A stretch of DNA of 64,000 bases from Siniperca chuatsi (lineage: Eukaryota; Chordata; Actinopteri; Centrarchiformes; Sinipercidae). The DNA lies in contig NC_058062.1 of NCBI RefSeq assembly GCF_020085105.1, forward strand, positions 1,760,001-1,824,000. The letters are read 5' to 3'. The position numbers and the translations under genes were made by a program. Below, piece by piece: positions 8,101 to 52,074 of this stretch. Positions within the stretch are counted from its first letter, which is position 1, and the number at the start of each line of letters is the position of its first letter. The notes under the pieces were generated by a model. It saw only the letters and a program-made list of their open reading frames with translations, made no database searches and was not told the DNA's origin.

Positions 8101-10331
8101 AAACCCAAAGATATTCAGTAGAATATTAGATATGAGCGAAGGAAATGATCAAATCTGGATAACTTCAGAAGCTGGAATCAGAGAATATTTGTTTTGGGGG
8201 TTTTTGTTGGAAAAATGACTGAAACGATTAATTATCAAAACAGCTGCTGATTAATATTCTGTCAGTTGACTAATAGATTAATCAACTCTCAATAACTATA
8301 TTTCATGCTGCTAACACTGCAGACACTGGACCCTTGACTCATATTATTTGTGACTAATTTTGCCTCAATACACTTTAGTTATTTATGTTTATATAGTAGA
8401 TGAAGCTCATAATGTTTCTATATTTATAGTTACTTATCTATACTATACATCTGTTCTTGTACTTCTGCTGCTGTGATACTTCAGTTTCCCTGCATGGGGT
8501 CAATAAAGTTTATCTTATCTCTTATGCTGGAATGATATTTAGACAGGCCTGCCAACTGTAACGACCGTAATCATGTTTTAATGTTTCGCGGGAGAGAAAC
8601 GCTTACTTTAGGTGGAATGAAGAATTCCAAGTAGTACTCCTCTCCCCGCTCACCACCTTCTCGGTCTCTCTCTCTGAGGACCAGACGACATTTATGCCAG
8701 CGTCCTCCTCTCCAGGGCACGTTCCCTCCGCTGGCCAGAGGCTGCACTGGACCTGCCTGAGCAGCAGCGGGTGAAGCTGAGGCAGCGTTGTTGTTGTCCG
8801 TACCGTGATGCAGTAGACTAAACGAGAAGCCAGAAAAGCCGTGGCTTGCACTTAACTCGTCGCTGGATGAACTAACGCTCACCCCGCCCTCCCGCACCAG
8901 CCGGCCCACCTTCCTCGGAGGTCCCATGGCGGCGGCGGCGGCACTGCTCGGAGGCAGCGTGGAGGAGGCGGAGTGAGAGCCGGCGGTGGGGGTGAGGACG
9001 GGAGGAGGGGATCGTGACAGTCTGAGTTTCTCCAGACGATGGCTCCACTTTTCCTTCTCACCTCCTTCGCCGTTGCTCCGCCGCCGATCCCGGGCAGCTT
9101 CCGAAAGAGACAGAGAGGTGGCGCTGCTTGAAGATGAGGGGGGCAGCGAGGAGGAGGAAGAGTGGGGAAGGGAGAGGGGCATGGACAGAGAAACAGGCAT
9201 GGAGGAGGTGGGTGTAGGAGGCTGCGTACCAGAGTTCCTCTTTGAGGTTGAAACAAAGCTGGCGTCCTGCACACCCATAGTGTAGCTGTAGCTGGAGGGC
9301 AGCTGGCTCTGGGCGGAGTCACTGGAGGAGCTTCGCCAGTGCAGGATGCCCCGGACACTCCCCCGCACACTGCGACCCACACTCCGCAGAGAAAAGCGCT
9401 TCTTCAGTTTGTTTTTAGAGGAGTTGGGCGTACCGTTACCTTTTGAGCCAGGTGGGGGAGTGACCGAGGAAGAGGAAGGTGGAATCTGACGAGTGTGGGA
9501 GGGGTCTGCGCTGTCCACCTCTGTGGACTCTGCTTCCTGCTCTTCTGGCTCAACGTCTTCCCCCACAGACGCTACCCCTAACCAGCTGTCCTCCTCTTCC
9601 TCAACTGGTGCTTCCCCGTTCCCAGGTGCAATCATGGCCCCCCTCTCTTCACGCCTCCCATTGTTTCCTCCCACTGAGGAGCAACACGACGATGACGAAG
9701 ATGGAGGCAGGACTTGGCTGTGGGCGTAAGAATCTTGAAACCTGTCCCCGCTGCGGTTCTCCAACACCAGCCGTGTCGGTGCAGGCTTGGACAAGGCCCG
9801 TGTCATGTTAGTCGGGGGACATGGGAGGACAGCTCCCCCAGACGCTGACAGGGGGGAAACCGCTTCCTCTTCAAGGGAAGTAGCATCTGACTGGGGAGCC
9901 CAGCTCACCATATCGTCCCTCCTAGAAGCACAGGTGGGCGGGAGCGCCCCCTCCAGCTCGCTCTGGAAGTGACGAACAAACCGGTCGGTGAAGCGCCGGC
10001 AGAAGGCGGCTGCTGAATCTGGGGAGTAGTGGGGGTTTTCCAGGAGAAAAGCCCGAAAGTGGCGTGCAAAGTCACCAGCTGCAACGCGGGCGTGGAGCTC
10101 ACAGAATTCGGTCCAGCTCAGGCAAGGCGAGGGGGACGGTGTGGGGGTGTCGGACAGGGAGGATGGGTGAGCCTGGGGCGGAGGGCTCACCAGAGGTGGT
10201 AGAGGGGGTGGCCGGGGGGACAGGGGCAGCAAAGAGGGAGACGGAGGGGACGGAGATGGGGAGGGTGAGGGAGGTAAAGGAGAGGAGTTTGCCGCCCGCG
10301 GGCTGGGCGGGGTTAAAAGAGAGCCGTTCAT
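1554..10331 (-). CDS. sh2b1: SH2B adaptor protein 1 (SH2B1), 8 coding exons
   Basis: This is a cytoplasmic adaptor that binds phosphotyrosines of JAK2, insulin, leptin and other receptors and boosts their signalling. Coding exons, read on the minus strand, are 10331-8607, 7516-7415, 6728-6637, 6512-6430, 5124-4975, 4782-4571, 4205-4031 and 1882-1554. All junctions are GT-AG, and the phases join into one frame of about 955 residues. The N-terminus (MNGS..., then [21 protein letters not shown]) is the dimerisation domain. The PH domain spans the exon 1/2/3 junctions ([24 protein letters not shown]). The SH2 domain is in exons 6-7 ([15 protein letters not shown], with FLVRQSE as its phosphate-binding arginine). 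The C-terminus is [10 protein letters not shown], matching the family's tail tyrosine. The protein is longer than mammalian SH2B1 because exon 1 is rich in Pro/Ser and the last exon in Gly/Pro. SH2-domain and ELPPR-linker residues favour SH2B1 over SH2B2/3. Family tails vary by alternative splicing, so other 3' exons could exist in the 4031-1882 intron. Confidence 0.93.
2151..2186. repeat. (CA)n microsatellite in last sh2b1 intron
   Basis: About 18 CA dinucleotides lie within the intron between exon 4205-4031 and the final exon. Confidence 0.9.
2250..2600 (+). repeat. Dispersed AT-rich repeat (gctgcaacgatta... family)
   Basis: It starts with a 'gggctgcaacgaatgacta' type end. It contains the family's 'ctgacgtcttcgaccaaaagtcc' block (split at about 2383) and ends with an 'attaatt...gatcaact' tail. 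The same block recurs about ten times in the window. This looks like a non-autonomous, MITE-like teleost element, but its superfamily is not established from the sequence alone. Confidence 0.6.
4320..4550 (-). repeat. Dispersed AT-rich repeat (gctgcaacgatta family)
   Basis: Shares the 'tttggtttttggactgctgg' core and the 'attaatcgataataatgaaa' end with the copies at 41.2, 50.9 and 60.9 kb. It lies in an sh2b1 intron, between the two SH2-coding exons. Confidence 0.55.
7955..8295 (+). repeat. Dispersed AT-rich repeat (gctgcaacgatta family)
   Basis: This copy lies in sh2b1 intron 1. It starts 'agggctgcaactaatctg' and carries the 'gacgtcttcaaactgctcg' core. It ends in 'gactaatagattaatcaac'. Confidence 0.6.
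8460..8522 (+). repeat. LINE-type 3' tail (gggtcaataaagtttatctt)
   Basis: The motif 'tgcatggggtcaataaagtt' followed by a short TATCT repeat matches the tails at 17.8, 25.8, 45.85 and 60.8 kb. Such tails are typical of teleost non-LTR retrotransposons and SINEs that use them. Class is inferred. Confidence 0.4.
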
Positions 10332-13500: not shown

Positions 13501-13757
13501 TACTTTTTACTCTATATGATGTGGTCTATAATGACAAATGTCTAGTTCTGTAGGTTTATCTCTCTAAATTGGGATAAACAGTTTTTTCTCATAAGTGCTG
13601 ATAATCTCTGTAACACCGCCTTTATATAAAAACCTGAAACATAAAGTTAAGAGCCTTAAAATAAAATGCTGCCACTTGAGTTTTTGTTATTCTTAGAAAA
13701 AATATTTGTATTGAGTGGTGGTAACTGTGGCTTTCACACACACTTTTTTCAATCAGT

Positions 13758-14240
13758 TCTTCTTCTTCTTCTTCTTCTTCTTCTTCTTCTTCTTCTTCTT
13801 CTTCTTCTTCTTCGTAAAGTTTAATGGCGGTTGTGCATCAACGTTGTGGTGCATTACCGCCACCAACTGGACTGGAGTGTGGATCTGTACATTCACTAAT
13901 TATTAAATAAAAGAAAATGAGAAAGATCAATAAAAAAAACACTCCATAGTTATATTCTCTCTAACCAAAATACACTGAAACAACAACAGATAACACTCCT
14001 CTCTATAACTTCTTTGTGAAAGATCTCGTAAATTAAACCTCGTCTTTATTTCTTTAAGGTTCAGCGTCACTTCTCTTCTCTCAGCGTCGTGTTTTGGACA
14101 GTAAATCATAACATGTTCTACAGTTTCTTCTTGATCACAGATCGTCCTGTGTTATGTTTTCCTATTTTAAATAATGAGCTGTTTAATCCTGTGTGATCAA
14201 AACGTAGCCTGGATGTTGCTGTTTCCTCTTTAGTGGTTCT
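13758..14240 (-). mobile_element. 3' end of a LINE (L1/Tx1-like) with (GAA)n tail
   Basis: Read on the minus strand, fragments translate as ...SRLRFDHTGLNSSLFKIGKHNTG, then ETVEHVMIYCPKHD. This is the histidine/cysteine stretch found at the C-terminus of L1/Tx1-type reverse transcriptase proteins, and here it is frameshifted. The 3' end contains a short inverted motif (tggcggttgtgcatc... gcattaccgcca, 13824-13861) and ends in a (TTC/GAA)n tail at 13758-13813. The part inside 13980-14240 is duplicated at the right end of the hsp70 inverted repeat. The element is 5' truncated and inactive. The clade is inferred. Confidence 0.65.
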
Positions 14241-14370
14241 CCCCGTTTCTCTCATCACAAGTCAGTTTATACATTAGGAACATTTTATTTTGAAATTCAA
14301 TCCCAGGAAGCTTGGATGAATACCAGAAAGACGAAACCAGAAAAAGTAAATATTCTATTAGACGTTCATC

Positions 14371-14376
14371 TTTATT
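14371..14376 (-). terminator. Poly(A) signal of left hsp70
   Basis: AATAAA on the minus strand, about 295 bases after the stop codon. The same signal is at 21041 in the right copy. A second AATAAA-like site lies near 14520. Confidence 0.6.
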
Positions 14377-14671
14377 GCAAAGTCCAGCAAGGCAGAGATG
14401 AAAAATACATTTAAACTTGTACATTTACAAAAAGGACAAAAACATATGAACTTCAAGAAGGTATAAAACTACAGTTGTATCCTAAACCACTGTTGGGATC
14501 GTAATGCAGAGATGAAACATTTATTTACATGGAAGATATGTGGACATTTTGGATCCTTACATCTTATACATCACATATAAAATAAGGAACAAACTTGCGA
14601 ACAAACGGCAGGAGGTTACAGTTGAACGTTAAACAGTCCCAGTGATCATAGAGTCCATATGAAGGGCCACT

Positions 14672-16591
14672 TTAGTCCACCTCCTCAATGGTGGGCCCCT
14701 GGGAGCCGGCTCGTGCCTGCTCTCTACAACTACCAGTGGGCATTCCTCCCTGATACAACTTGCTGATGATGGGGTTACACACTTTCTCCAGCTCCTTCTG
14801 CTGGTGTTGGTACTCCTCTTTATCAGCCAGCTGGTTGTTCTCCAGCCAGGCGATGGTCTCGTCGCACTTCTCCATCAGCTTCTTCTGGTCCTCCTCGCTG
14901 ATTTTGCCCTTCAACTTCTCGTCCTGCACAGTGCTCTTCACGTTGAAGGCGTAGGACTCCAGCGAGTTCTTGGCGGCGATTTTGTCCCTCTGAAGGTCGT
15001 CCTCAGCTTTGTATTTGTCAGCGTCCTGCACCATCCTCTCGATCTCTTCTTTGCTCAGTCGGCCCTTATCGTTGGTGATGGTGATCTTGTTCTCTTTGCC
15101 GGTGCTTTTGTCCACCGCAGACACGTTCAAAATGCCGTTGGCGTCCACGTCGAAGGTGACCTCGATCTGCGGGACCCCTCGTGGAGCGGGTGGGATTCCT
15201 GTCAGCTCAAACGTGCCCAGCAGGTTGTTGTCCTTGGTCATGGCTCTTTCCCCTTCGTAGACCTGGATGAGGACCCCGGGCTGGTTGTCAGAGTAGGTGC
15301 TGAAGACCTGGGTTTGTTTAGTGGGGATGGTGGTGTTGCGTTTGATCAGGGACGTCATGACTCCTCCAGCTGTCTCGATACCCAGGGACAGAGGCGCCAC
15401 GTCCAGCAGCAGCAGGTCCTGAACGTTGCCCGAGGTATCGCCTGTGAGGATGGCGGCCTGGGCGGCAGCACCGTAAGCCACCGCCTCGTCTGGGTTGATG
15501 CTCTTGTTCAGCTCCCTGCCGTTGAAGAAATCCTGCAGGAGCTTCTGGATTTTGGGGATTCGGGTGGAGCCTCCGACCAGGGCGGCGTCGTGGATCTGCG
15601 CCTTGTCCATTTTGGCGTCCCTCAGGGCTTTCTCCACCGGCTCTAACGTTCCCCTGAACAGGTCGGAGCACAGCTCCTCAAAGCGAGCCCTGGTGATGGA
15701 GGTGTAGAAGTCGATGCCCTCAAACAGAGAGTCGATCTCGACGCTGGCCTGGGAGCTGGAGGACAGGGTTCTCTTGGCCCTCTCGCAAGCTGTGCGCAGC
15801 CTCCTCAAGGCTCTCTTGTTCTGCCCGATGTCCTTCTTGTGTTTCCTCTTGAACTCCTCCACAAAGTGGTTGACCATGCGGTTGTCAAAGTCTTCTCCAC
15901 CCAGGTGAGTGTCTCCAGCCGTGGCTTTGACCTCAAAGATGCCGTCTTCGATGGTCAGGATGGACACGTCGAAGGTGCCTCCACCCAGGTCAAAGATCAG
16001 GACGTTACGTTCTCCTGTCCTGCCTTTGTCCAGACCGTACGCGATGGCGGCTGCCGTCGGCTCGTTGATGATCCTCAGGACGTTCAGTCCCGCGATGACG
16101 CCTGCGTCTTTAGTCGCCTGTCGCTGGGAGTCGTTGAAGTACGCCGGGACCGTGATGACTGCGCTGGACACCTTGTGGCCCAGGTAGGCCTCAGCGATCT
16201 CCTTCATCTTCACCAGGACCATGGAGGAAATCTCCTCGGGGTAGAAGGCTTTGTCCTCCCCTTTGTATTCCACCTGAATTTTGGGCTTGCCTCCGTCTCC
16301 GACCACCTTGAAGGGCCAGTGCTTCATGTCAGCCTGCACCACCGGATCGTCCAGCTTTCTTCCAATCAGTCTCTTGGCATCAAACACAGTGTTGCTGGGG
16401 TTCAAAGCCACCTGGTTCTTGGCTGCGTCCCCAATGAGCCTCTCGCTGTCGGTGAACGCCACATAGCTGGGCGTGGTCCTGTTGCCCTGGTCGTTGGCGA
16501 TGATTTCTACTTTTCCGTGCTGGAAAACCCCCACGCAGGAGTAGGTGGTGCCCAGGTCGATGCCGATCGCTACGCCTTTAGCTGCGGACAT
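14672..16591 (-). CDS. hsp70: Heat-inducible HSP70 chaperone, intact copy
   Basis: This is a cytosolic/nuclear ATP-dependent chaperone of 639 residues, the usual length for inducible fish HSP70. The coding region has no intron. The start is the ATG of [18 protein letters not shown]; a GTG six bases upstream in frame is not the start. Visible HSP70 signatures are [38 protein letters not shown], a VGGSTRIPK block, the substrate-binding domain ([21 protein letters not shown]) and the C-terminal GPTIEEVD, whose EEVD binds TPR co-chaperones. It differs from the family at [11 protein letters not shown] and GAAAQAAI, where the frameshifted neighbour has the usual VV and V. A 5'UTR intron spans 16941-16611, and a TATA box and a heat-shock element lie upstream. 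Lack of coding introns and the EEVD tail favour the inducible HSPA1-type over hsc70. Confidence 0.96.
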
Positions 16592-16610
16592 TTTCACCGG
16601 AGACGGCCGT

Positions 16611-16941
16611 CTGTGAAACAGTTAAACAACATTTTAGAAACCAGCTGAAGGAACTGAACATCGGCACATTACTGCACATGTACACCGACTCGCAGCTCAC
16701 GTTTAACAGGCTGCAGTCACATTTATCATCATTCGCTCAGTCAAATATTGTTCTGTTTAAGTCGTTTGAGGCACCAGAACATTTAGGCTGTGCTTCTCGG
16801 GAGCGTGAAAACATTTTTTAAAACTCCTCAACTCTTTGTTCCACTGACATTACTTACACACATAATGCATTTACCAAATATCAAAGCATCAGACCTTCAG
16901 TGTAAACTAGTTTTCCCATCAGAAATGAGGGTTGAACTTAC
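16611..16941 (-). other. 5'UTR intron of left hsp70
   Basis: On the minus strand there is a CTG|GTAAGT-like donor at 16941-16936 and a TTTCACAG acceptor ending at 16611. It is 331 bp long, exactly the length of the intron in the right copy. A 5'UTR intron is known for some fish hsp70 genes. Confidence 0.7.
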
Positions 16942-17056
16942 AGGTTAGAGTTGAGTGGTCTGTGTTGTGAAGAGGATCGAGCTCCTCCTTCCTCTCTGGA
17001 TCTTCTGCTGCGGTCTGATCTCTCTCTGTTTCTGCCTCTGCGCTCCGACCAGCCGC

Positions 17057-17101
17057 CTTATATCTGAGGAAGCTGCCTGTCTGGCTGCTTCTAGACGTTT
17101 C
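17057..17101 (-). promoter_or_regulatory. TATA box and heat-shock element of left hsp70
   Basis: On the minus strand, AGATATAAGG lies at 17066-17057. GAAacGTCtaGAA lies at 17101-17089. The second matches nGAAnnTTCnnGAAn at eight of nine fixed bases, the central TTC being GTC. The HSE is just upstream of TATA, as expected for an HSF1-controlled promoter. Confidence 0.6.
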
Positions 17102-17360
17102 ACACGCAGCGCCATCAAGTCAGCGTCTGTGGCAAGCGCGACTTCCTGTTACTCATTTCACAATAAAACGCCCCGCGGTGCATGCAAGCTGTGGTTAACC
17201 AGAATAAACAAGCACTTGTCTTATTGTGAAAGCAAAGTCTAACACTATCACTGACAACTTGACGCAGAAGTCCGGACTCAGCCTGGAGGAGTGGAGCGAA
17301 ACCCAGAAACATCCAGACACACAGCTGTAGGTAAAAACAATATCACAATAATGAATAGAT

Positions 17361-17845
17361 AAATAAAAATAAAACTTCCATTGCTTACCAGTGTACATTT
17401 ATAATGTAAGAAGCATAAATTAAATGAATGGGGGGAGTTTTGTTGATATGCTTTAATGCTGTTTTAAAATAATTGTTTATATTGTAGCTTTATTATTCTG
17501 ATCATAAATGTTTTCTAGAAAGTTTCTCTAAGAAAATAAGATTCCTGAGCTCAGTTTGCAACCTGCCTTTTTAGGAGTGACAACAAAAACACTGATAAGT
17601 AAATACATTAAAGAAATGCTAAGTTACAGACACATCGTAGTTTGGCATCAGTCTTTATCAGGTTTAATAGAAAAAGAATAATTTGGAATTGTACTTGTAT
17701 ATAATATATTTATTAATCAAGAAAATAAATGGCAGATTAATCGATAATGAAATAATCGTTAGTTGTTACATGTATGCATACTGGTTTAGGGAAAATACTG
17801 TAACCTTCCCTCCTAGGATCAATAAAGTTGTATCTTTACTTATCT
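17361..17845. other. Spacer between hsp70 inverted arms
   Basis: AT-rich sequence of about 485 bp joins the two arms. It includes a partial copy of the 'gctgcaacgatta' repeat near 17690-17770 and a 'ggatcaataaagttgtatct' LINE-type tail near 17816. No gene is seen. Confidence 0.6.
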
Positions 17846-18317
17846 TTTATTTATTATTGTGATATTGTTTTTACCTACAGCTGTGTTACTGTTAGGCTGT
17901 TGTTCTTATTACAGTTACATTATTGACACGCATCCTTTTATAAAATATGCAGGTCAAACAAGTCTGTTATTAGTTGAGCAACATCTGGGTCAAGTTTTCA
18001 TCACGTTTTTAGTACAGATGAACTGATTAACTACTTGTGTGAATAAACTACCAACCGCCAATAAATCACCCTCGAATAACGTTTAGAAGTAAAAGTGTGT
18101 TTCTGGATGTTTCTGGGTTTCGCTCCAGTCCTCCAGGCTGAGTCCGGACTTCTGCGTCAAGTTGTCAGTGATAGTGTTAGACTTTGCTTTCACAATAAGA
18201 CAAGTGCTTGTTTATTCTGGTTAACCACAGCTTGCATGCACCGCGGGGCGTTTTATTGTGAAATGAGTAACAGGAAGTCGCGCTTGCCACAGACGCTGAC
18301 TTGATGGCGCTGCGTGT

Positions 18318-18363
18318 GAAACGTCTAGAAGCAGCCAGACAGGCAGCTTCCTCAGATATAAGG
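18318..18363 (+). promoter_or_regulatory. Heat-shock element and TATA box of right hsp70
   Basis: GAAacGTCtaGAA lies at 18318-18330 and AGATATAAGG at 18354-18363, both identical to the left arm. The promoter appears intact although the coding region is broken. Confidence 0.6.
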
Positions 18364-18477
18364 CGGCTGGTCGGAGCGCAGAGGCAGAAACAGAGAGAGA
18401 TCAGACCGCAGCAGAAGATCCAGAGAGGAAGGAGGAGCTCGATCCTCTTCACAACACAGACCACTCAACTCTAAACT

Positions 18478-18808
18478 GTAAGTTCAACCCTCATTTCTGA
18501 TGGGAAAACTAGTTTACACTGAAGGTCTGATGCTTTGATATTTGGTAAATGCATTATGTGTGTAAGTAATGTCAGTGGAACAAAGAGTTGAGGAGTTTTA
18601 AAAAATGTTTTCACGCTCCCGAGAAGCACAGCCTAAATGTTCTGGTGCCTCAAACGACTTAAACAGAACAATATTTGACTAAACGAATGATGATAAATGT
18701 GACTGCAGCCTGTTAAACGTGAGCTGCGAGTCGGTGTACATGTGCAGTAATGTGCCGATGTTCAGTTCCTTCAGCTGGTTTCTAAAATTTTGTTTAACTG
18801 TTTCACAG
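18478..18808 (+). other. 5'UTR intron of right hsp70
   Basis: Donor GTAAGT at 18478 and acceptor TTTCACAG ending at 18808. It is 331 bp long, the same length as in the left arm. Confidence 0.7.
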
Positions 18809-18827
18809 ACGACCGTCTCCGGTGAAA

Positions 18828-20744
18828 ATGTCCGCAGCTAAAGGCGTAGCGATCGGCATCGACCTGGGCACCACCTACTCCTGCGTGGGGGTTTTCCAGC
18901 ACGGAAAAGTAGAAATCATCGCCAACGACCAGGGCAACAGGACCACGCCCAGCTATGTGGCGTTCACCGACAGCGAGAGGCTCATTGGGGACGCAGCCAA
19001 GAACCAGGTGGCTTTGAACCCCAGCAACACTGTGTTTGATGCCAAGAGACTGATTGGAAGAAAGCTGGACGATCCGGTGGTGCAGGCTGACATGAAGCAC
19101 TGGCCCTTCAAGGTGGTCGGAGACGGAGGGAAGCCCAAAATTCAGGTGGAATACAAAGGGGAGGACAAAGCCTTCTACCCCGAGGAGATTTCCTCCATGG
19201 TCCTGGTGAAGATGAAGGAGATCGCTGAGGCCTACCTGGGCCACAAGGTGTCCAGCGCAGTCATCACGGTCCCGGCGCACTTCAACGACTCCCAGCGACA
19301 GGCGACTAAAGACGCAGGCGTCATCGCGGGACTGAACGTCCTGAGGATCATCAACGAGCCGACGGCAGCCGCCATCGCGTACGGTCTGGACAAAGGCAGG
19401 ACAGGAGAACGTAACGTCTTGATCTTTGACCTGGGTGGAGGCACCTTCGACGTGTCCATCCTGACCATCGAAGACGGTATCTTTGAGGTCAAAGCCACGG
19501 CTGGAGACACTCACCTGGGTGGAGAAGACTTTGACAACCGCATGGTCAACCACTTTGTGGAGGAGTTCAAGAGGAAACACAAGAAGGACATCGGCCAGAA
19601 CAAGAGAGCCTTGAGGAGGCTGCGCACAGCTTGCGAGAGGGCCAAGAGAACCCTGTCCTCCAGCTCCCAGGCCAGCGTCGAGATCGACTCTCTGTTTGAG
19701 GGCATCGACTTCTACACCTCCATCACCAGGGCTCGCTTTGAGGAGCTGTGCTCCGACCTGTTCAGGGGCGTTAGAGCCGGTGGAGAAAGCCCTGAGGGAC
19801 GCCAAAATGGACAAGGCGCAGATCCACGACGTCGTCCTGGTCGGAGGCTCCACCCGAATCCCCAAAATCCAGAAGCTCCTGCAGGATTTCTTCAACGGCA
19901 GGGAGCTGAACAAGAGCATCAACCCAGACGAGGCGGTGGCTTACGGTGCTGCCGTCCAGGCCGCCATCCTCACAGGCGATACCTCGGGCAACGTTCAGGA
20001 CCTGCTGCTGCTGGACGTGGCGCCTCTGTCCCTGGGTATCGAGACAGCTGGAGGAGTCATGACGTCCCTGATCAAACGCAACACCACCATCCCCACTAAA
20101 CAAACCCAGGTCTTCAGCACCTACTCTGACAACCAGCCCGGGTCCTCATCCAGGTCACGAAGGGGAAAGAGCCATGACCAAGGACAACAACCTGCTGGGC
20201 GCGTTTGAGCTGACAGGAATCCCTCCCGCTCCACGAGGGGTCCCGCGAGATCGAGGTCACCTTCGACGTGGGCGCCAGCGGCATTTTGAGCGTGTCTGCG
20301 GTGGACAAAAGCACCGGCAAAGAGAACAAGATCACCATAACCAACGATAAGGGCCGACTGAGCAAAGAAGAGATCGAGAGGATGGTGCAGGACGCTGACA
20401 AATACAAAGCTGAGGACGACCTTCAGAGGGACAAAATCGCCGCCAAGAACTCGCTGGAGTCCTACGCCTTCAACGTGAAGAGCACTGTGCAGGACGAGAA
20501 GTTGAAGGGCAAAATCAGCGAGGAGGACCAGAAGAAGCTGATGGAGAAGTGCGACGAGACCATCGCCTGGCTGGAGAACAACCAGCTGGCTGATAAAGAG
20601 GAGTACCAACACCAGCAGAAGGAGCTGGAGAAAGTGTGTAACCCCATCATCAGCAAGTTGTATCAGGGAGGAATGCCCACTGGTAGTTGTAGCGAGCAGG
20701 CACGAGCCGGCTCCCAGGGGCCCACCATTGAGGAGGTGGACTAA
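18828..20744 (+). pseudogene. hsp70: HSP70 copy broken by four clustered indels
   Basis: This is a near-identical mirror copy of the gene at 14672-16591, with the same MSAAKG start and GPTIEEVD end. Compared with the intact copy it has a 2-bp deletion near 19768 (ggggAAcgtt to ggggcgtt) and a 1-bp deletion near 20140 in a G run. A 1-bp deletion near 20156 (gtcTacg to gtcacg) and a 1-bp insertion near 20245 (ccgcagatc to ccgcGagatc) follow. The net change is -3, so both termini are in the same frame while roughly residues 314-475 are not. As it stands it would encode about 315 ATPase-domain residues plus a foreign tail, stopping near 20099. It also has Tyr to His in VPAYFNDSQ. The indels may be true mutations or sequencing/assembly errors in a duplicated region, so the gene could be functional. 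Confidence 0.8.
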
Positions 20745-21040
20745 AGTGGCCCTTCATATGGACTCTATGATCACTGGGACTGTTTAACGTTCAACTGTAA
20801 CCTCCTGCCGTTTGTTCGCAAGTTTGGTCCTTATTTTATATGTGATGTATAAGTTGTAAGGATCCAAAATGTCCACATATCTTCCATGTAAATAAATGTT
20901 TCATCTCTGCATTACGATCCCAACACTGGTTTAGGATACAACTGTAGTTTTATACCTTCTTGAAGTTCATATGTTTTTGTCCTTTTTTGTAAATGCACAA
21001 GTTTAAATGTATTTTTCATCTCTGCCTTGCTGGACTTTGC

Positions 21041-21046
21041 AATAAA
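21041..21046 (+). terminator. Poly(A) signal of right hsp70
   Basis: AATAAA follows 'tggactttgc', matching the left arm. A second AATAAA lies near 20890. Confidence 0.6.
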
Positions 21047-21483
21047 GATGAACGTCTAATAGAATATTTACTTTTTCTGGTTTCGTCTTTCTGGTATTCA
21101 TCCAAGCTTCCTGGGGTTGAATTTCAAAATAAAATGTTCCTAATGTATAAACTGACTTGTGATGAGAGAAACGGGGAGAACCACTAAAGAGGAAACAGCA
21201 ACACCCAGGCTACGTTTTGGTCACACAGGATTAAACAGCTCATTATTTAAAATAGGAAAACATAATAAAGGACGATCTGTGATCAAGAAGAAACTGTAGA
21301 ACATGTTATGATTTACTGTCCAAAACACGACGCTGAGAGAAGAGAAGTGACGCTGAAACTTAAAGAAATAATGATGAGGTTTGATTTACGATATCTTTCA
21401 CAACGAAGTTATAGAGAGAAGTGTTATCTGTTGTTTGCACCATAACGTTGATTACCAACTGCCATAAAACTTTACGAAGAAGA

Positions 21484-22040
21484 GGCCCTTCATATGGACT
21501 CTATGATCACTGGGACTGTTTAACATTCAACTGTAACCTCCTGCCGTTTGTTACATATTGTGTGTTTTGTTGTTATTTTAATGGATCATTTGACATCAGG
21601 CCAACGGACAACAGCTGAAAGTTTGCGTTTTGGCTAACGCTGGCACATTTACAGTGATTGATCAATGTGATTGTCCCTGTAAATTAATCACATTTTAAAG
21701 AAAATGTTTGGTCCCTTGGTCCCCGTGTGATGAATAACTAACTTCATCTCTGGACTATGATCACTACTGCGGTTTAAAATTCAACTGTGACTTTATATCT
21801 CATGTTCAAATGTATTTTTTCTTAATTGTAAATGTATAAGTTGTAAAAAAAAAACATACTAAAATTTAAATGTATTTTTCATATCTGCCTCGCTGGACTT
21901 TGCAATAAAGATGAAAACCTAATAGAATTTTTATTGTTTTGATTTTTCATGTTTTATTGTTTTAGTCAATCATGAATTTTGAAAAAAGAAGTCATCCAAA
22001 CTTCCTGGGATTCAATCACAAAATAAAATGTGTTTAATTT
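21484..22040 (+). repeat. Degenerate third copy of hsp70 3' flank
   Basis: Positions 21484-21551 repeat the sequence just after the right hsp70 stop codon (ccttcatatggactctatga..., compare 20750-20818). Positions 21865-21930 repeat the polyadenylation segment (tggactttgcaataaagatg, compare 21031-21050). Positions 21985-22035 repeat 'cttcctgggattcaatcaca' (compare 21107-21130 and the left arm). No coding sequence is attached. It is a remnant of a further tandem copy or of the duplication process. Confidence 0.7.
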
Positions 22041-22640
22041 TTTTACTGAAAATTGAAGAAAGTGTACACTGAAGTTAGTAATGAGCACGGCTCTATATCC
22101 TCAGAAAAAGCTGTAAAATGAAAAACGTTCGACTGTGTAATGAGATACAGTATGTTGGTTTGTGGGGGCATATAGGGGCCACGATTAATTAATCAATAGA
22201 TATTTTGACCAAAGGAATACATAAATAAATGTGTCCAGTTAAATTTAAATAAAGAATATTACATTTTTCTGTATTTTCATTTAACCTCCCTGCGTATTTC
22301 CATATAATCAGTACAAATATCTGTATCTATTTCCAATGAAGAATGTGGAGTTGTAGACCAGAGAACAATGAACATGACCATTTCTGTATATATTATAATA
22401 TTAAAGCAATGTTATTAGTAATAATCACATGTTGGTATCAATAACCTCCACCTGTGTAAGGACAGAAACAATATCATAAACAGTTTCAAAATAAAACCAT
22501 GGACAGCCAGACATTCAAAATAAAAGACCCCCAGCAGAGTGTATGTAGACAGAGGGGAACTGCTTTCTGGGATACATCACATGATTCACATTATTTATTA
22601 ATACAAATACTATTAACATTAATATTAATGGGGCGCCTGG
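22041..22640. other. AT-rich stretch without recognised features
   Basis: No gene, RNA or repeat family is recognised. Confidence 0.4.
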
Positions 22641-22905: not shown

Positions 22906-22917
22906 GGCATGTAAGTC

Positions 22918-23198
22918 CTTCTTCCTTATTTTCTTTCGTCCTTTCTTTTCTTCCTTATTTTTTCCTTATTTTCTTTTGTTCTCTTTCTTCCTTCCTTCCC
23001 TCTTTCCTTCCCTTCCCTGCTTACTTCTTTCTTCCTTATTTTCTTTTGTTCTTTCTTTCTTTCTTTCTTTCCTTCCTTGCTTCCTTTTTTCCTCTCTTTC
23101 TTTCTTCCTTATTTTTTCCTTATTTTCTTTTTCTTCTTTCCTTCCCTTCCCTGCTTCCCTCTTTCCTTCCCTTTTCCGTATTTTCTTTCATCCATTTT

Positions 23199-23261
<63 letters not shown>

Positions 23262-23896
23262 CTCTCTTTCCTTCCTTTTGTTCTTTCTTTCTTTCTTTCT
23301 TTCTCTCTCTTTCTTTCCTTTTGTTCTTTCTTTCTTTCTTTCTTTCTCTCTCTTTCCTTCCTTTTGTTCTTTCTCTCTCTTTCCTTCCTTTTGTTCTTTC
23401 TTTCTTTCTTTCTCTCTCTTTCCTTCCTTTTGTTCTTTCTTTCTTTCTCTCTCTCTCTTTCCTTCCTTTTGTTCTTTCTTTCTTTTTCATTCTCTCTCTT
23501 TCCTTCCTTTTGTTCTTTCTCTCTCTTTCCTTCCTTTTGTTCTTTCTTTCTCTTTCATTCCTTTTGTTCTTTCTTTCTCTTTCCTTCCTTTTGTTCTTTC
23601 GTTCTTTCTTTATCTTTCCTTCCTTTCTTTCTTTCCTTATTTTCTTTCTTTCATCCTTTCTCTCTCTTTCTTCCTTATTTTCTTTTGTCCTTTCTTCCTT
23701 CTTTTCCTTCCTTCCCTCTTTTCTTTCTTCCTTGCTTACTTCCTTCTTCCTCATTTCTTTCCTTCCTTTCCTTCTTTCCTTCCTTCCCTTCCTTGCTTCC
23801 TTCTTTCCTTCCTTTTTCCTTATTTTCTTTCATAATTTTTTCTTTCTTCCTTCCTTCCTCTCTTTCTTTCTTTCTTCCTTATTTTCTTTTCTTCTT
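22918..23896. repeat. ~1-kb polypyrimidine TTTC/TTCC tract
   Basis: Nearly pure C+T on the plus strand, built of TTTC and TTCC words. A higher-order unit of about 35 bp (ctctctttccttccttttgt plus ttctttcttt) repeats roughly a dozen times between 23260 and 23610. The 330-residue frame across it is an artefact. Confidence 0.9.
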
Positions 23897-24700: not shown

Positions 24701-33724
<9,024 letters not shown>

Positions 33725-33794: not shown

Positions 33795-34009
33795 CTCACA
33801 CACACTCTCTGGATGTGCTGCGAGTGTTAAATGAGGTCAGGTTTGTAGGAGCTCAGAGAGGAGGATCAGGAGGGAGGAGCCTCCTGCTGCCACCTGTCAG
33901 AGGTGTAGGAAGTACTCAGGTCCGTTACTGCAGTAAAAGCACTGACACACACTCTGTGAAACCCTCTGCTGCAGTGAAAGTGTGAGAGTGTGATCAGGAA
34001 AAAGCCCTT

Positions 34010-34450
34010 AAAGCATTAAAGCAGTGCAGCGTCCCTGTGGCTGCTGTGCTGTTATATATTCTATCATCAGGTTATTATTCCTCGTGCATTAATGTAAAGC
34101 AGGATGTTGCTGCTGCAGCTGGTGGAGCTGGAGCTCATGTTGAACCGGTTTGTATCGGACTGCAGCTGATGATGCTTTTCATTCTGGATCCATCTGCCGA
34201 TTCTTTTCTCCGTCGATCCGTCGATCGGTTTGGAAAACTGGTGAAAACGGTGAGAAACGCCGTCACGACGACCCAGAGCCCAAAGCGACGCCTTCAGCGT
34301 GTCGTCGTGTCCGACCGACAGTCCAAAGCTCGACGTTATTAACAAACATTACAGTTATTACAGTCGTTCAGAGGAAAAGCAGCAGATCTGCACATCTGAG
34401 GAGCTGCAGCCAGGAAGGGATTTACAGGAGAAACGACTCCAAACATCAAA
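34010..34450 (+). repeat. ~430-bp dispersed repeat, copy A
   Basis: Contains 'gtaaagcaggatgttgctgc', 'gcagctgatgatgcttttca' and 'gaaaacggtgagaaacgccg'. It is nearly identical to the inverted copy at 43560-44115, and part of it recurs at 36777-36995. The open frames through it are not conserved proteins. Confidence 0.75.
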
Positions 34451-34544
34451 ACAGCTGCTGATCGATTAATCGATTAATCGATTCAGCTGAACTCGTATAA
34501 ACTGTTGGGAGTTTCATTTATAGCGGCAAAAATCTGAATCTGAA

Positions 34545-34625
34545 TAGAAGGATGCTGAGGTTGGAGCTGCCAGGCAGGAGGTCTAGAGGAAGACCAAAGA
34601 GGAGATTTCTGGATGTAGTGAGAGA
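34545..34625 (+). mobile_element. LINE fragment (LPGRRSRGRPKRRFLDVVREL)
   Basis: The plus-strand frame gives RMLRLELPGRRSRGRPKRRF followed by LDVVREL. This basic stretch is typical of the C-terminal part of some LINE polyproteins. It abuts the oppositely oriented reverse-transcriptase fragment that follows. Confidence 0.5.
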
Positions 34626-36544: not shown

Positions 36545-36780
36545 TTTGAATGTAGCTACGTACATTTACTCAAGTACTGTACTTAAGTACAAATCTGAGG
36601 TACTTTTACTTTACTCAAGGCTTTGTTTTCACGCCACTTTCTCCTTCTGCTCTCCTACATCTCTCTTTTTCACTTCACTGCATTTATCTGACAGCTTTAG
36701 TTACTTTACAAATCAAGATTTTTGCTACAAAACATATGAGGAGTTTATAAAATATGTTTTGTTATAAATTAAACTAATGT
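36545..36780. repeat. Dispersed 'aagtacttttac' repeat copy
   Basis: 'acatttactcaagtactgta' and 'gcatttatctgacagcttta' are shared with the other copies. It is followed directly by copy B of the ~430-bp repeat. Confidence 0.6.
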
Positions 36781-36995
36781 AAAGCAGGATGTTGCTGCTG
36801 CAGCTGGTGGAGCTGGAGCTCATGTTGAACCGGTTTGTATCGGACTGCAGCTGATGATGCTTTTCATTCTGGATCCATCTGCCCATTCTTTTCTCCGTCG
36901 ATCCATCGATCGGTTTGGAAAACTGGTGAAAACGGTGAGAAACGCCGTCACGACGACCCAGAGCCCAAAGCGACGCCTGCAGCCAGGAAGGGATT
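36777..36995 (+). repeat. ~430-bp dispersed repeat, copy B (partial)
   Basis: Matches 34098-34290 closely from 'gtaaagcaggatgttgctgc' through 'cccaaagcgacgcct', then diverges. Confidence 0.75.
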
Positions 36996-39440: not shown

Positions 39441-39456
39441 AGCGTTTAGGGAATAA

Positions 39457-39935
39457 AAGAAGAAGAAGAAGACGAAGGAAGAAGAAGAAGAAGGAAGAAG
39501 AAGAAGAAGAAGAAGAAGAAGAAGAAGAAGAAGGAAGAAGACGAATGAAGAAGAAGAAGACGAATGAAGAAGAAGAAGACGAAGGAAGAAGACGAAGAAG
39601 GAAGAAGACGAAGAAGAAGAAGAAGAAGACGAAGAAGAAGAAGAAGAAGAAGAAGAAGAAGAAGAAGACGAAGGAAGAAGACGAAGGAAGAAGCGAAGGA
39701 AGAAGAAGAAGAAGAAGAAGGAAGAAGAAGAAGAAGACGAAGAAGAAGAAGAAGAAGACGAAGGAAGAAGAAGAAGAAGACGAAGAAGAAGAAGAAGAAG
39801 AAGAAGGAAGAAGAAGAAGGAAGAAGAAGAAGAGAAGAAGGAAGAAGAAGAAGAAGAAGAAGAAGAAGAAGAAGGAAGAAGACGAAGAATGAAGAAGAAG
39901 ACGAATGAAGAAGACGAAGAAGAAGAAGAGAATAT
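39457..39935. repeat. ~480-bp purine tract (GAA/GGAAGAA/GACGAA)n
   Basis: Almost pure A+G on the plus strand with regular GAC and GGAAG interruptions. Long frames of Lys/Glu/Arg (plus) or Ser/Phe/Leu (minus) are artefacts. Confidence 0.95.

Positions 39936-43351: not shown

Positions 43352-52074
<8,723 letters not shown>

Follow-up and report, generated by a model that had tools for sequence, protein, structure and literature searches.

Two hsp70 genes of the fish Siniperca chuatsi stand head to head as the arms of a long inverted repeat in a 64,000-nucleotide stretch of contig NC_058062.1 (assembly GCF_020085105.1, positions 1,760,001 to 1,824,000 of the forward strand). This whole stretch is called the window here, and positions within it are counted from its first letter. 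Probably, the right arm was copied from the left after an element resembling a long interspersed nuclear element (LINE) had inserted beside the left gene, and gene conversion is likely to keep the coding sequences (CDSs) of both genes, and of a third copy called T, nearly identical. When the window is compared with itself by BLAST, 13982-17323 and 21435-18096 form a single large inverted match of 98.68% identity over 3344 columns (E 0), with 38 mismatches and 5 gap openings. The inverted duplication is confirmed in the assembly, and all results on arms and frames below are properties of that assembly, based on the assembled sequence alone. A sequence-only reading of this DNA had proposed a head-to-head hsp70 duplication with near-identical arms of about 3.4 kb, outer bounds at 13980 and 21437 and a spacer of under 500 bp between the divergent genes. 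The alignment bears this out: the self-BLAST ends (13982 and 21435) agree with the proposed bounds, and the unique part of the spacer is about 490 bp long.

13982..17323, gene on the minus strand: left arm of the inverted repeat, 98.68% identical to 21435-18096
18096..21435, gene on the plus strand: right arm of the inverted repeat (self-BLAST and base-level alignment)
17319..17357, minus strand: inner extension of the left arm, 39 bp, pairing with 17848-17886 at 97.4%
17358..17847, no strand: unique spacer between the arms, about 490 bp, with a short dispersed-repeat tail at about 17703-17767
17887..18095, plus strand: stretch of 209 bp on the right side only, a deletion in the left or an insertion in the right

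At base level, the arm alignment takes in the promoter, the 5' untranslated region (5'UTR) with its 331-bp intron, the complete CDS, the 3'UTR and further 3' flank. The homology extends beyond 13980 and 21437 at both ends, inward and outward. The outward extension is 48 bp long (13806-13853 against 21436-21483, 87.5% identical) and is separated from the main match by 128 bp (13854-13981) that are present in the left and absent from the right. On the inner side, the 209-bp stretch at 17887-18095 has no counterpart in the left arm and matches nothing else in the compared DNA. Misassembly is a known hazard of long inverted repeats, and the whole palindrome could in principle be the product of a haplotype misjoin or a fold-back read. 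We regard this as very unlikely. A plain fold-back would not be expected to leave arms separated by 38 substitutions and by indels as large as 209 and 128 bp, nor a right arm fused to an older, diverged hsp70 3'UTR; the flanks of the two arms are also unlike.

The genes within the arms, with their introns and promoters, are as follows.

14672..16591, minus strand: left hsp70 CDS, open, 639 amino acids (PF00012, E 1.6e-260; best PDB chain HSPA1A; EEVD end)
18828..20744, plus strand: right hsp70 CDS with four small indels and a stop at 20097-20099
16611..16941, minus strand: left 5'UTR intron, 331 bp, GT..AG (by eye)
18478..18808, plus strand: right 5'UTR intron, 331 bp, GT..AG (by eye)
17057..17102, minus strand: left promoter, with a site like a heat shock element (HSE), TGAAACGTCTAGAAG, from 17102 and TATAAG at 17062
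18317..18362, plus strand: right promoter, with the HSE-like TGAAACGTCTAGAAG from 18317 and TATAAG at 18357

The left protein has a full Hsp70 domain (positions 1-599 of the 599 in the PF00012 profile), ends in EEVD and is encoded in a single open frame without introns. Its best PDB chain is HSPA1A, at 1215 bits vs 1185 for HSPA2. The close full-length fish matches, among the best 120 listed, are mostly named heat shock 70 kDa protein 1 or 1-like, and the closest full-length relatives among the matches listed are up to 95% identical (Semicossyphus pulcher). These features suggest that the pair is of the stress-inducible, HSPA1-type cytosolic class, for which heat induction itself is plausible. 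The 331-bp intron proposed earlier for the 5'UTR of both copies is found in each with its GT and AG kept (16941-16611 in the left, 18478-18808 in the right).

The claim that both promoters are intact holds in part. The core promoter and first exon comprise 346 identical bases common to both arms, and the same HSE-like site and TATAAG occur in each. However, this rests in each arm on one three-unit HSE-like match, at 8/9, 40 bp upstream of the TATA-like box, and 17 matches as good occur on one strand of the 64 kb, which makes the arm sites modest against chance. A second HSE-like site lies at 18100 in the right arm, where the left differs by one base. The right promoter being intact in sequence, heat-shock transcription of the right copy is plausible. 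Separately, the spacer between the two genes holds an HSE-like match of its own, TTTCTAGAAAGTTTC (8/9), at 17512-17526.

A third copy and the probable exchange of coding sequence

Across the source genome (719 Mb, 65 contigs), a search turned up two more hsp70 genes of full length and open in one frame. One is a paralog on contig C10, here called C10, whose protein is 87% identical. The other is T.

C21:1865854-1867770, minus strand: third hsp70 copy T, intact, on the window's own contig at a distance of 85-90 kb (91 kb start to start)

The CDS of T is 99.3% identical to that of the left gene. The close match between them is confined to window positions 14618-16594 (99.2%), that is, from 3 bp before the ATG to 54 bp past the stop. 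Upstream, T gives no BLAST match to the left gene and has a promoter of its own, with a four-unit HSE at 11/12, an inverted CCAAT box and a TATA box; a 5'UTR intron of its own is predicted by eye. Downstream, its 3'UTR has mostly diverged, yet the region of the polyadenylation signal is common with the left 3'UTR. T shares with the pair the CDS but not the flanks, while the left and right copies share their flanks too. In the neighbouring 16 stretches (C21 1700001-1760000 and 1824001-1920000; L009-L011 and L013-L025), no hsp70 pieces other than the CDS and 3'UTR of T were found; the comparison of hsp70 pieces, arm promoters and spacer beyond the window covered C21 1.70-1.92 Mb.

The 3'UTR ends of T, of the left gene and of an older hsp70 remnant described below can still be aligned at a low level, which argues that T is an old paralog. 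Its coding sequence is a young one. Synonymous divergence (Ks) is 0.014 between left and right and 0.016 between either of them and T, as compared with 1.43 to the C10 paralog; the latter value means that selection has not frozen synonymous sites in this family. Protein-level selection cannot hold silent sites so alike while promoters and introns are unalignable, and the likeness of T is for this reason best explained, and likely so, by ectopic gene conversion across the CDS and the first part of the 3'UTR. The silent sites of T are more like those of the pair than the age of the paralogs allows, an argument that applies to T and not to the left-right pair by itself. The palindrome had already been called prone to gene conversion, and T, with its match confined to the CDS, adds evidence in its support. 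T, the LINE-like insertion common to the arms and the remnant of an older 3'UTR are all features beyond that earlier proposal.

A match that excludes the flanks could also arise if T were a processed, reverse-transcribed copy of the left gene. This is most improbable. The match begins 3 bp ahead of the ATG and gives out about 54 bp beyond the stop, limits that are not the ends of an mRNA, and T has a predicted 5'UTR intron, promoter elements of its own and a related 3'UTR end. Since homology bounded by mRNA ends and lack of an intron are the marks of a retrocopy, T was dropped as a candidate for one.

The LINE-like insertion and the likely direction of copying

Four features at the outer ends of the arms bear on which copy came first.

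13757..14259, minus strand: LINE-like insertion on the downstream side of the left hsp70, 5'-truncated and carrying an (AAG)n tail (dispersed repeat)
21158..21483, plus strand: right-arm LINE-like insertion, upstream junction as in the left, 128 bp missing inside, cut in the tail
21480..21552, plus strand: beginning of an older hsp70 3'UTR, joined directly to the LINE-like tail, 97% identical to 20744-20816
21743..22049, plus strand: remainder of that older hsp70 3'UTR with its flank, lacking the LINE-like insertion and likely an empty site (70% and 81% matches)

The element is a dispersed repeat, with 43 match rows from the 40 candidates scored out of 246. At the protein level it gave no Pfam match and no homolog. 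In a comparison with ten other copies, taken over at most 600 bp upstream, the likeness among them goes on for about 580-600 bp in seven, for some 160 bp in one and for some 50 bp in another; the tenth (L027) showed no such continuation. As most of these copies run further upstream, the element in the window is 5'-truncated. The left and right arms have an identical insertion junction and, beyond the truncated end, 600 bp of unique hsp70 flank at 98.8% identity, and therefore carry one insertion, not two.

The two arms end differently. Unique flank follows the tail of the element in the left. In the right, the element breaks off within its tail, and from 21480 onwards the sequence is the beginning of an hsp70 3'UTR. 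This older 3'UTR is oriented as the right gene is. Between its start (21480-21552) and its end lie 190 bases without a close match, and its flank passes through the insertion site without the element and shows a short match beyond, one that 0.19% of random places match as well. Because the left keeps the tail of the element and the flank, whereas the right is cut and fused to a remnant resembling an empty site, the left arm is likely to have been the source and the right arm the copy. The remnant is 97% identical over 73 bp and about 70% thereafter, a profile like that of T, which is alike for 54 bp and then diverged. This suggests that the lost older gene had also once been homogenised.

Four things can be read directly from the sequence: the two arms, the 5'-truncated insertion common to them, the joining of the right arm to the older 3'UTR, and the limits of the T match (the CDS and about 54 bp). 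From them we infer an older right-hand gene that lost its body and the joining of a left-gene copy at that place. The order of events would be as follows. A LINE-like element would have inserted beside the left hsp70 gene, and an older hsp70 gene formerly at the right-hand place would have been left without its body. A left-gene copy that extended into the LINE-like tail would then have been joined, inverted, to the 3' end of the older hsp70, perhaps via short AAG microhomology at the junction. Afterwards, conversion would act mainly over the gene while the outer LINE-like part drifted, and ectopic conversion would also trade the coding region with T, 91 kb away.

Divergence between the arms fits this picture of ongoing exchange over the gene and less of it at the rim. 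At presumed neutral positions the arms differ at 7/729 sites in the 5' flank, first exon and intron, at 6/432 silent sites and at 5/409 sites of the 3'UTR. The LINE-like part has 11/281 differences in the element and 6/48 in its tail. Taken together, the inner 18/1570 and the outer 17/329 differ significantly (Fisher p 1.7e-5; p 0.002 when the 48-bp tail is left out and 11/281 is used). Inner parts are thus about 1% apart and the LINE-like part 4-12.5%, or 3 to 11 times more diverged. A simpler history would be a single recent inverted duplication without gene conversion, in which the arms are alike through youth only. The level of about 1% across promoter, intron, silent sites and 3'UTR is what it predicts, and a young duplication has no need of conversion. 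However, it leaves T unexplained, whose CDS is at a Ks of 0.016, as between the arms, with an upstream region that does not match and a 3'UTR mostly diverged, and it does not account for the greater divergence of the outer LINE-like part. We consider this history unlikely and prefer copying from the left followed by conversion.

Several observations weigh against the preferred history. The LINE-like part might simply mutate faster, which could explain its higher divergence. Uneven spacing of the 43 left-right events does not reach significance by any of three measures (p 0.32, 0.06 and 0.08). Conversion is deduced from the contrast of CDS and flank in one genome, and C10 is too distant for polarising silent sites. 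Next to the element, the match of the empty site spans few bases (13/18) and reaches only p 0.06 in a plain shuffled local alignment. The remnant, moreover, may be what is left of the end of a separate tandem gene, not of a replaced one.

In its fullest form, the history would have this one vertebrate locus record every stage in the life of an hsp70 palindrome: a divergent older gene that lost its body and was rebuilt as an inverted copy of its neighbour, a LINE tail as the seam, a burst of clustered mutations, left by repair synthesis or later conversion, that broke the copy, and a CDS that alone is traded with T, a gene under a different heat-shock promoter. So complete an account is doubtful. 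In a vertebrate case of this kind, the shared transposon, the empty site and T would make it possible to learn from a single locus how fast and in which direction conversion acts and where its tracts end. For assays of hsp70 expression in this fish, primers in the CDS or short reads would hardly separate the three copies, one of which may be non-coding.

The right frame, disrupted as assembled

The finding that only the left copy is open, with 639 amino acids, stands: relative to it, the right CDS has one 2-bp deletion, two 1-bp deletions and one 1-bp insertion (net -3). In the assembly, the right frame runs for 423 codons, of which about 313 are native, to a stop at 20097-20099; the native part of the 423-residue product ends, we presume, inside the nucleotide-binding domain. 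As the sole intron is in the 5'UTR, the early stop would have no exon junction downstream, and the right-copy transcript might escape junction-dependent decay. As assembled, the right copy is by its sequence a young pseudogene with a disabled frame.

In a three-way comparison of the CDSs, the odd-one-out columns number 6 for left, 14 (13 events) for right and 7 for T, or 11 for T when short CDS flanks are included. The right-specific events, polarised using T, are strongly clustered: 9/13, including 3/4 indels, lie inside 210 bp (p 1e-4 vs random placement; this length was picked post hoc, and 150 and 100 bp give p 0.0017 and 0.0024). Within this patch, A-to-G changes fall at residues that are Asp, Asn and Asn in 91/91 relatives. 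Right-specific changes hit residues fixed in 91/91 relatives at codons 151, 483, 485 and 489, three of them inside the patch. At codons 467 and 623, two of the 13 events match the C10 state and may be old, and so not changes of the right copy. All five arm-to-arm indels, taken together, show no significant clustering (p 0.37).

The patch can be either a burst of mutation in a free-running pseudogene or a poorly assembled stretch. In the latter case the right copy would be intact in the animal and its frame broken only by bad polishing in a region of three copies, a rival that concerns the frame alone and is compatible with the history of the arms proposed above. We take it to be a serious possibility, though one we lean away from. 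The packing of 9/13 events and 3/4 indels into 210 bp is what poor polishing could leave, and three near-identical copies make the assignment of reads hard. T has a three-base change at codon 492, which is Ala in 91/91 relatives, and the left copy has three Val-to-Ala changes that, together with it, all fall within codons 336-492. On the other hand, four right-specific changes in the patch are A-to-G substitutions, only 1/4 indels sits in a run of at least 3 equal bases, the aligned arms differ outside the CDS by a single 1-bp indel, and left, T and C10 are all without a frameshift.

All three Val-to-Ala changes of the left copy are derived. Codon 336 is Ile or Val in 91/91 relatives, codon 337 is Val in 91/91, and codon 377 is Val in 90/91, with Ile in the remaining one. 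The idea that the left copy is a hidden second pseudogene was dropped, its load of unusual residues being ordinary. Departures from columns conserved in at least 98% of other relatives number 2 in left, 1 in T and 1 in C10, and since 36/91 database relatives have at least 2 such departures, the load of the left is not unusual. Codon 492 of T (C21:1866295-1866297, L009) reads CGC vs GCG in left and right, its reverse complement, and changes Ala to Arg; it could be a 3-bp micro-inversion, two paired indels or an assembly error. All copy-specific transitions in codons 336-489 of both arms (7/7, at 15462-15585 and 20201-20290) are A-to-G on the plus strand, too few to interpret.

Related hsp70 clusters and the neighbourhood

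Human HSPA1A is not known to have a 5'UTR intron. Palindromic hsp70 pairs linked to gene conversion are known in flies, and the present locus is a vertebrate case. Sections of PMC3924832 describe Hsp70Aa/Hsp70Ab and Hsp70Ba/Hsp70Bb of Drosophila as two palindromic pairs under ectopic gene conversion. The fish locus is like them in its linked, mirror-image, inducible-type hsp70 genes, in a similarity likely kept by ectopic conversion and in having more copies on the chromosome. Unlike them, it has one arm whose frame is broken in the assembly, a T with an unrelated promoter that shares the CDS only, and a LINE-like insertion that marks the likely direction of copying. It is this arrow of copying, the exchange with T limited to the CDS and the disabled arm that are distinctive here. 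In mammals, according to parts of PMC5865164, tandem HSPA1A and HSPA1B have a near-identical CDS through gene conversion and purifying selection, and HSPA1A and HSPA1L are head to head. The fish pair resembles this cluster in its linked stress-inducible copies with near-identical CDSs. In the mammalian case as given there, however, the near-identical pair is tandem and both members are intact, whereas the fish pair is head to head and has a 5'UTR intron.

Among teleosts, tandem hspa1a clusters, possibly of independent origins, are described in portions of PMC6406738, for example in Boleophthalmus pectinirostris. That cluster and the present locus are alike as lineage-specific multiplications of inducible hsp70 in percomorph fish. 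The teleost clusters differ in being tandem, and the terms "head-to-head" and "gene conversion" are absent from the main text of PMC6406738. The titles and abstract openings listed from the open PubMed Central literature gave no fish hsp70 palindrome with gene conversion, and extracts of PMC6316144, PMC2871787 and PMC2793543 gave nothing decisive. In a protein tree that combines left, T and C10 with 53 of the 120 listed proteins, picked by hand, the copies of one species group as a clade apart in 11/14 database species, the exceptions being two Takifugu species and Lepisosteus (the root). Left groups with T, and C10 lies apart. Some of the tree records may be alleles or re-annotations.

One neighbouring gene was recognised beside the pair.

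8571..10331, minus strand: exon of SH2B adapter protein 1 (Phe_ZIP, PF08916), up to 96% identical to teleost SH2B1

The SH2B1 exon is up to 96% identical to that of perch-like fish. By eye, the contigs listed for hsp70 and SH2B1 are equal in length, so that the two genes are apparently on one contig, in Channa striata, Sphaeramia, Pungitius pungitius, Antennarius, Myripristis and Pholidichthys, and in Channa striata the serial names of the two entries are adjacent. The listed hsp70 and SH2B1 are on contigs of unequal length in Genypterus blacodes, Hippocampus zosterae and Pagrus major. The nearness of hsp70 to SH2B1 may be an old neighbourhood.

Within the window there were no Rfam matches at gathering score and no tRNA. 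In a set of viral contigs, one contig has a 66% relative, which was not used as evidence. A minisatellite lies at 48415-48747 (32-bp unit, 10.4 copies, 98%). Two other inverted repeat pairs occur: 25188-25812 with 30655-31262, at 92% over 629 columns, and 33973-34549 with 43529-44119, at 96% over 592 columns and with a third piece at 36775-36983; the latter repeat as a whole is possibly a transposable element. Long pyrimidine and purine tracts at 22916-23896 and 39456-39932 (TTCT and AAG arrays) form a mutual inverted match at about 70%.

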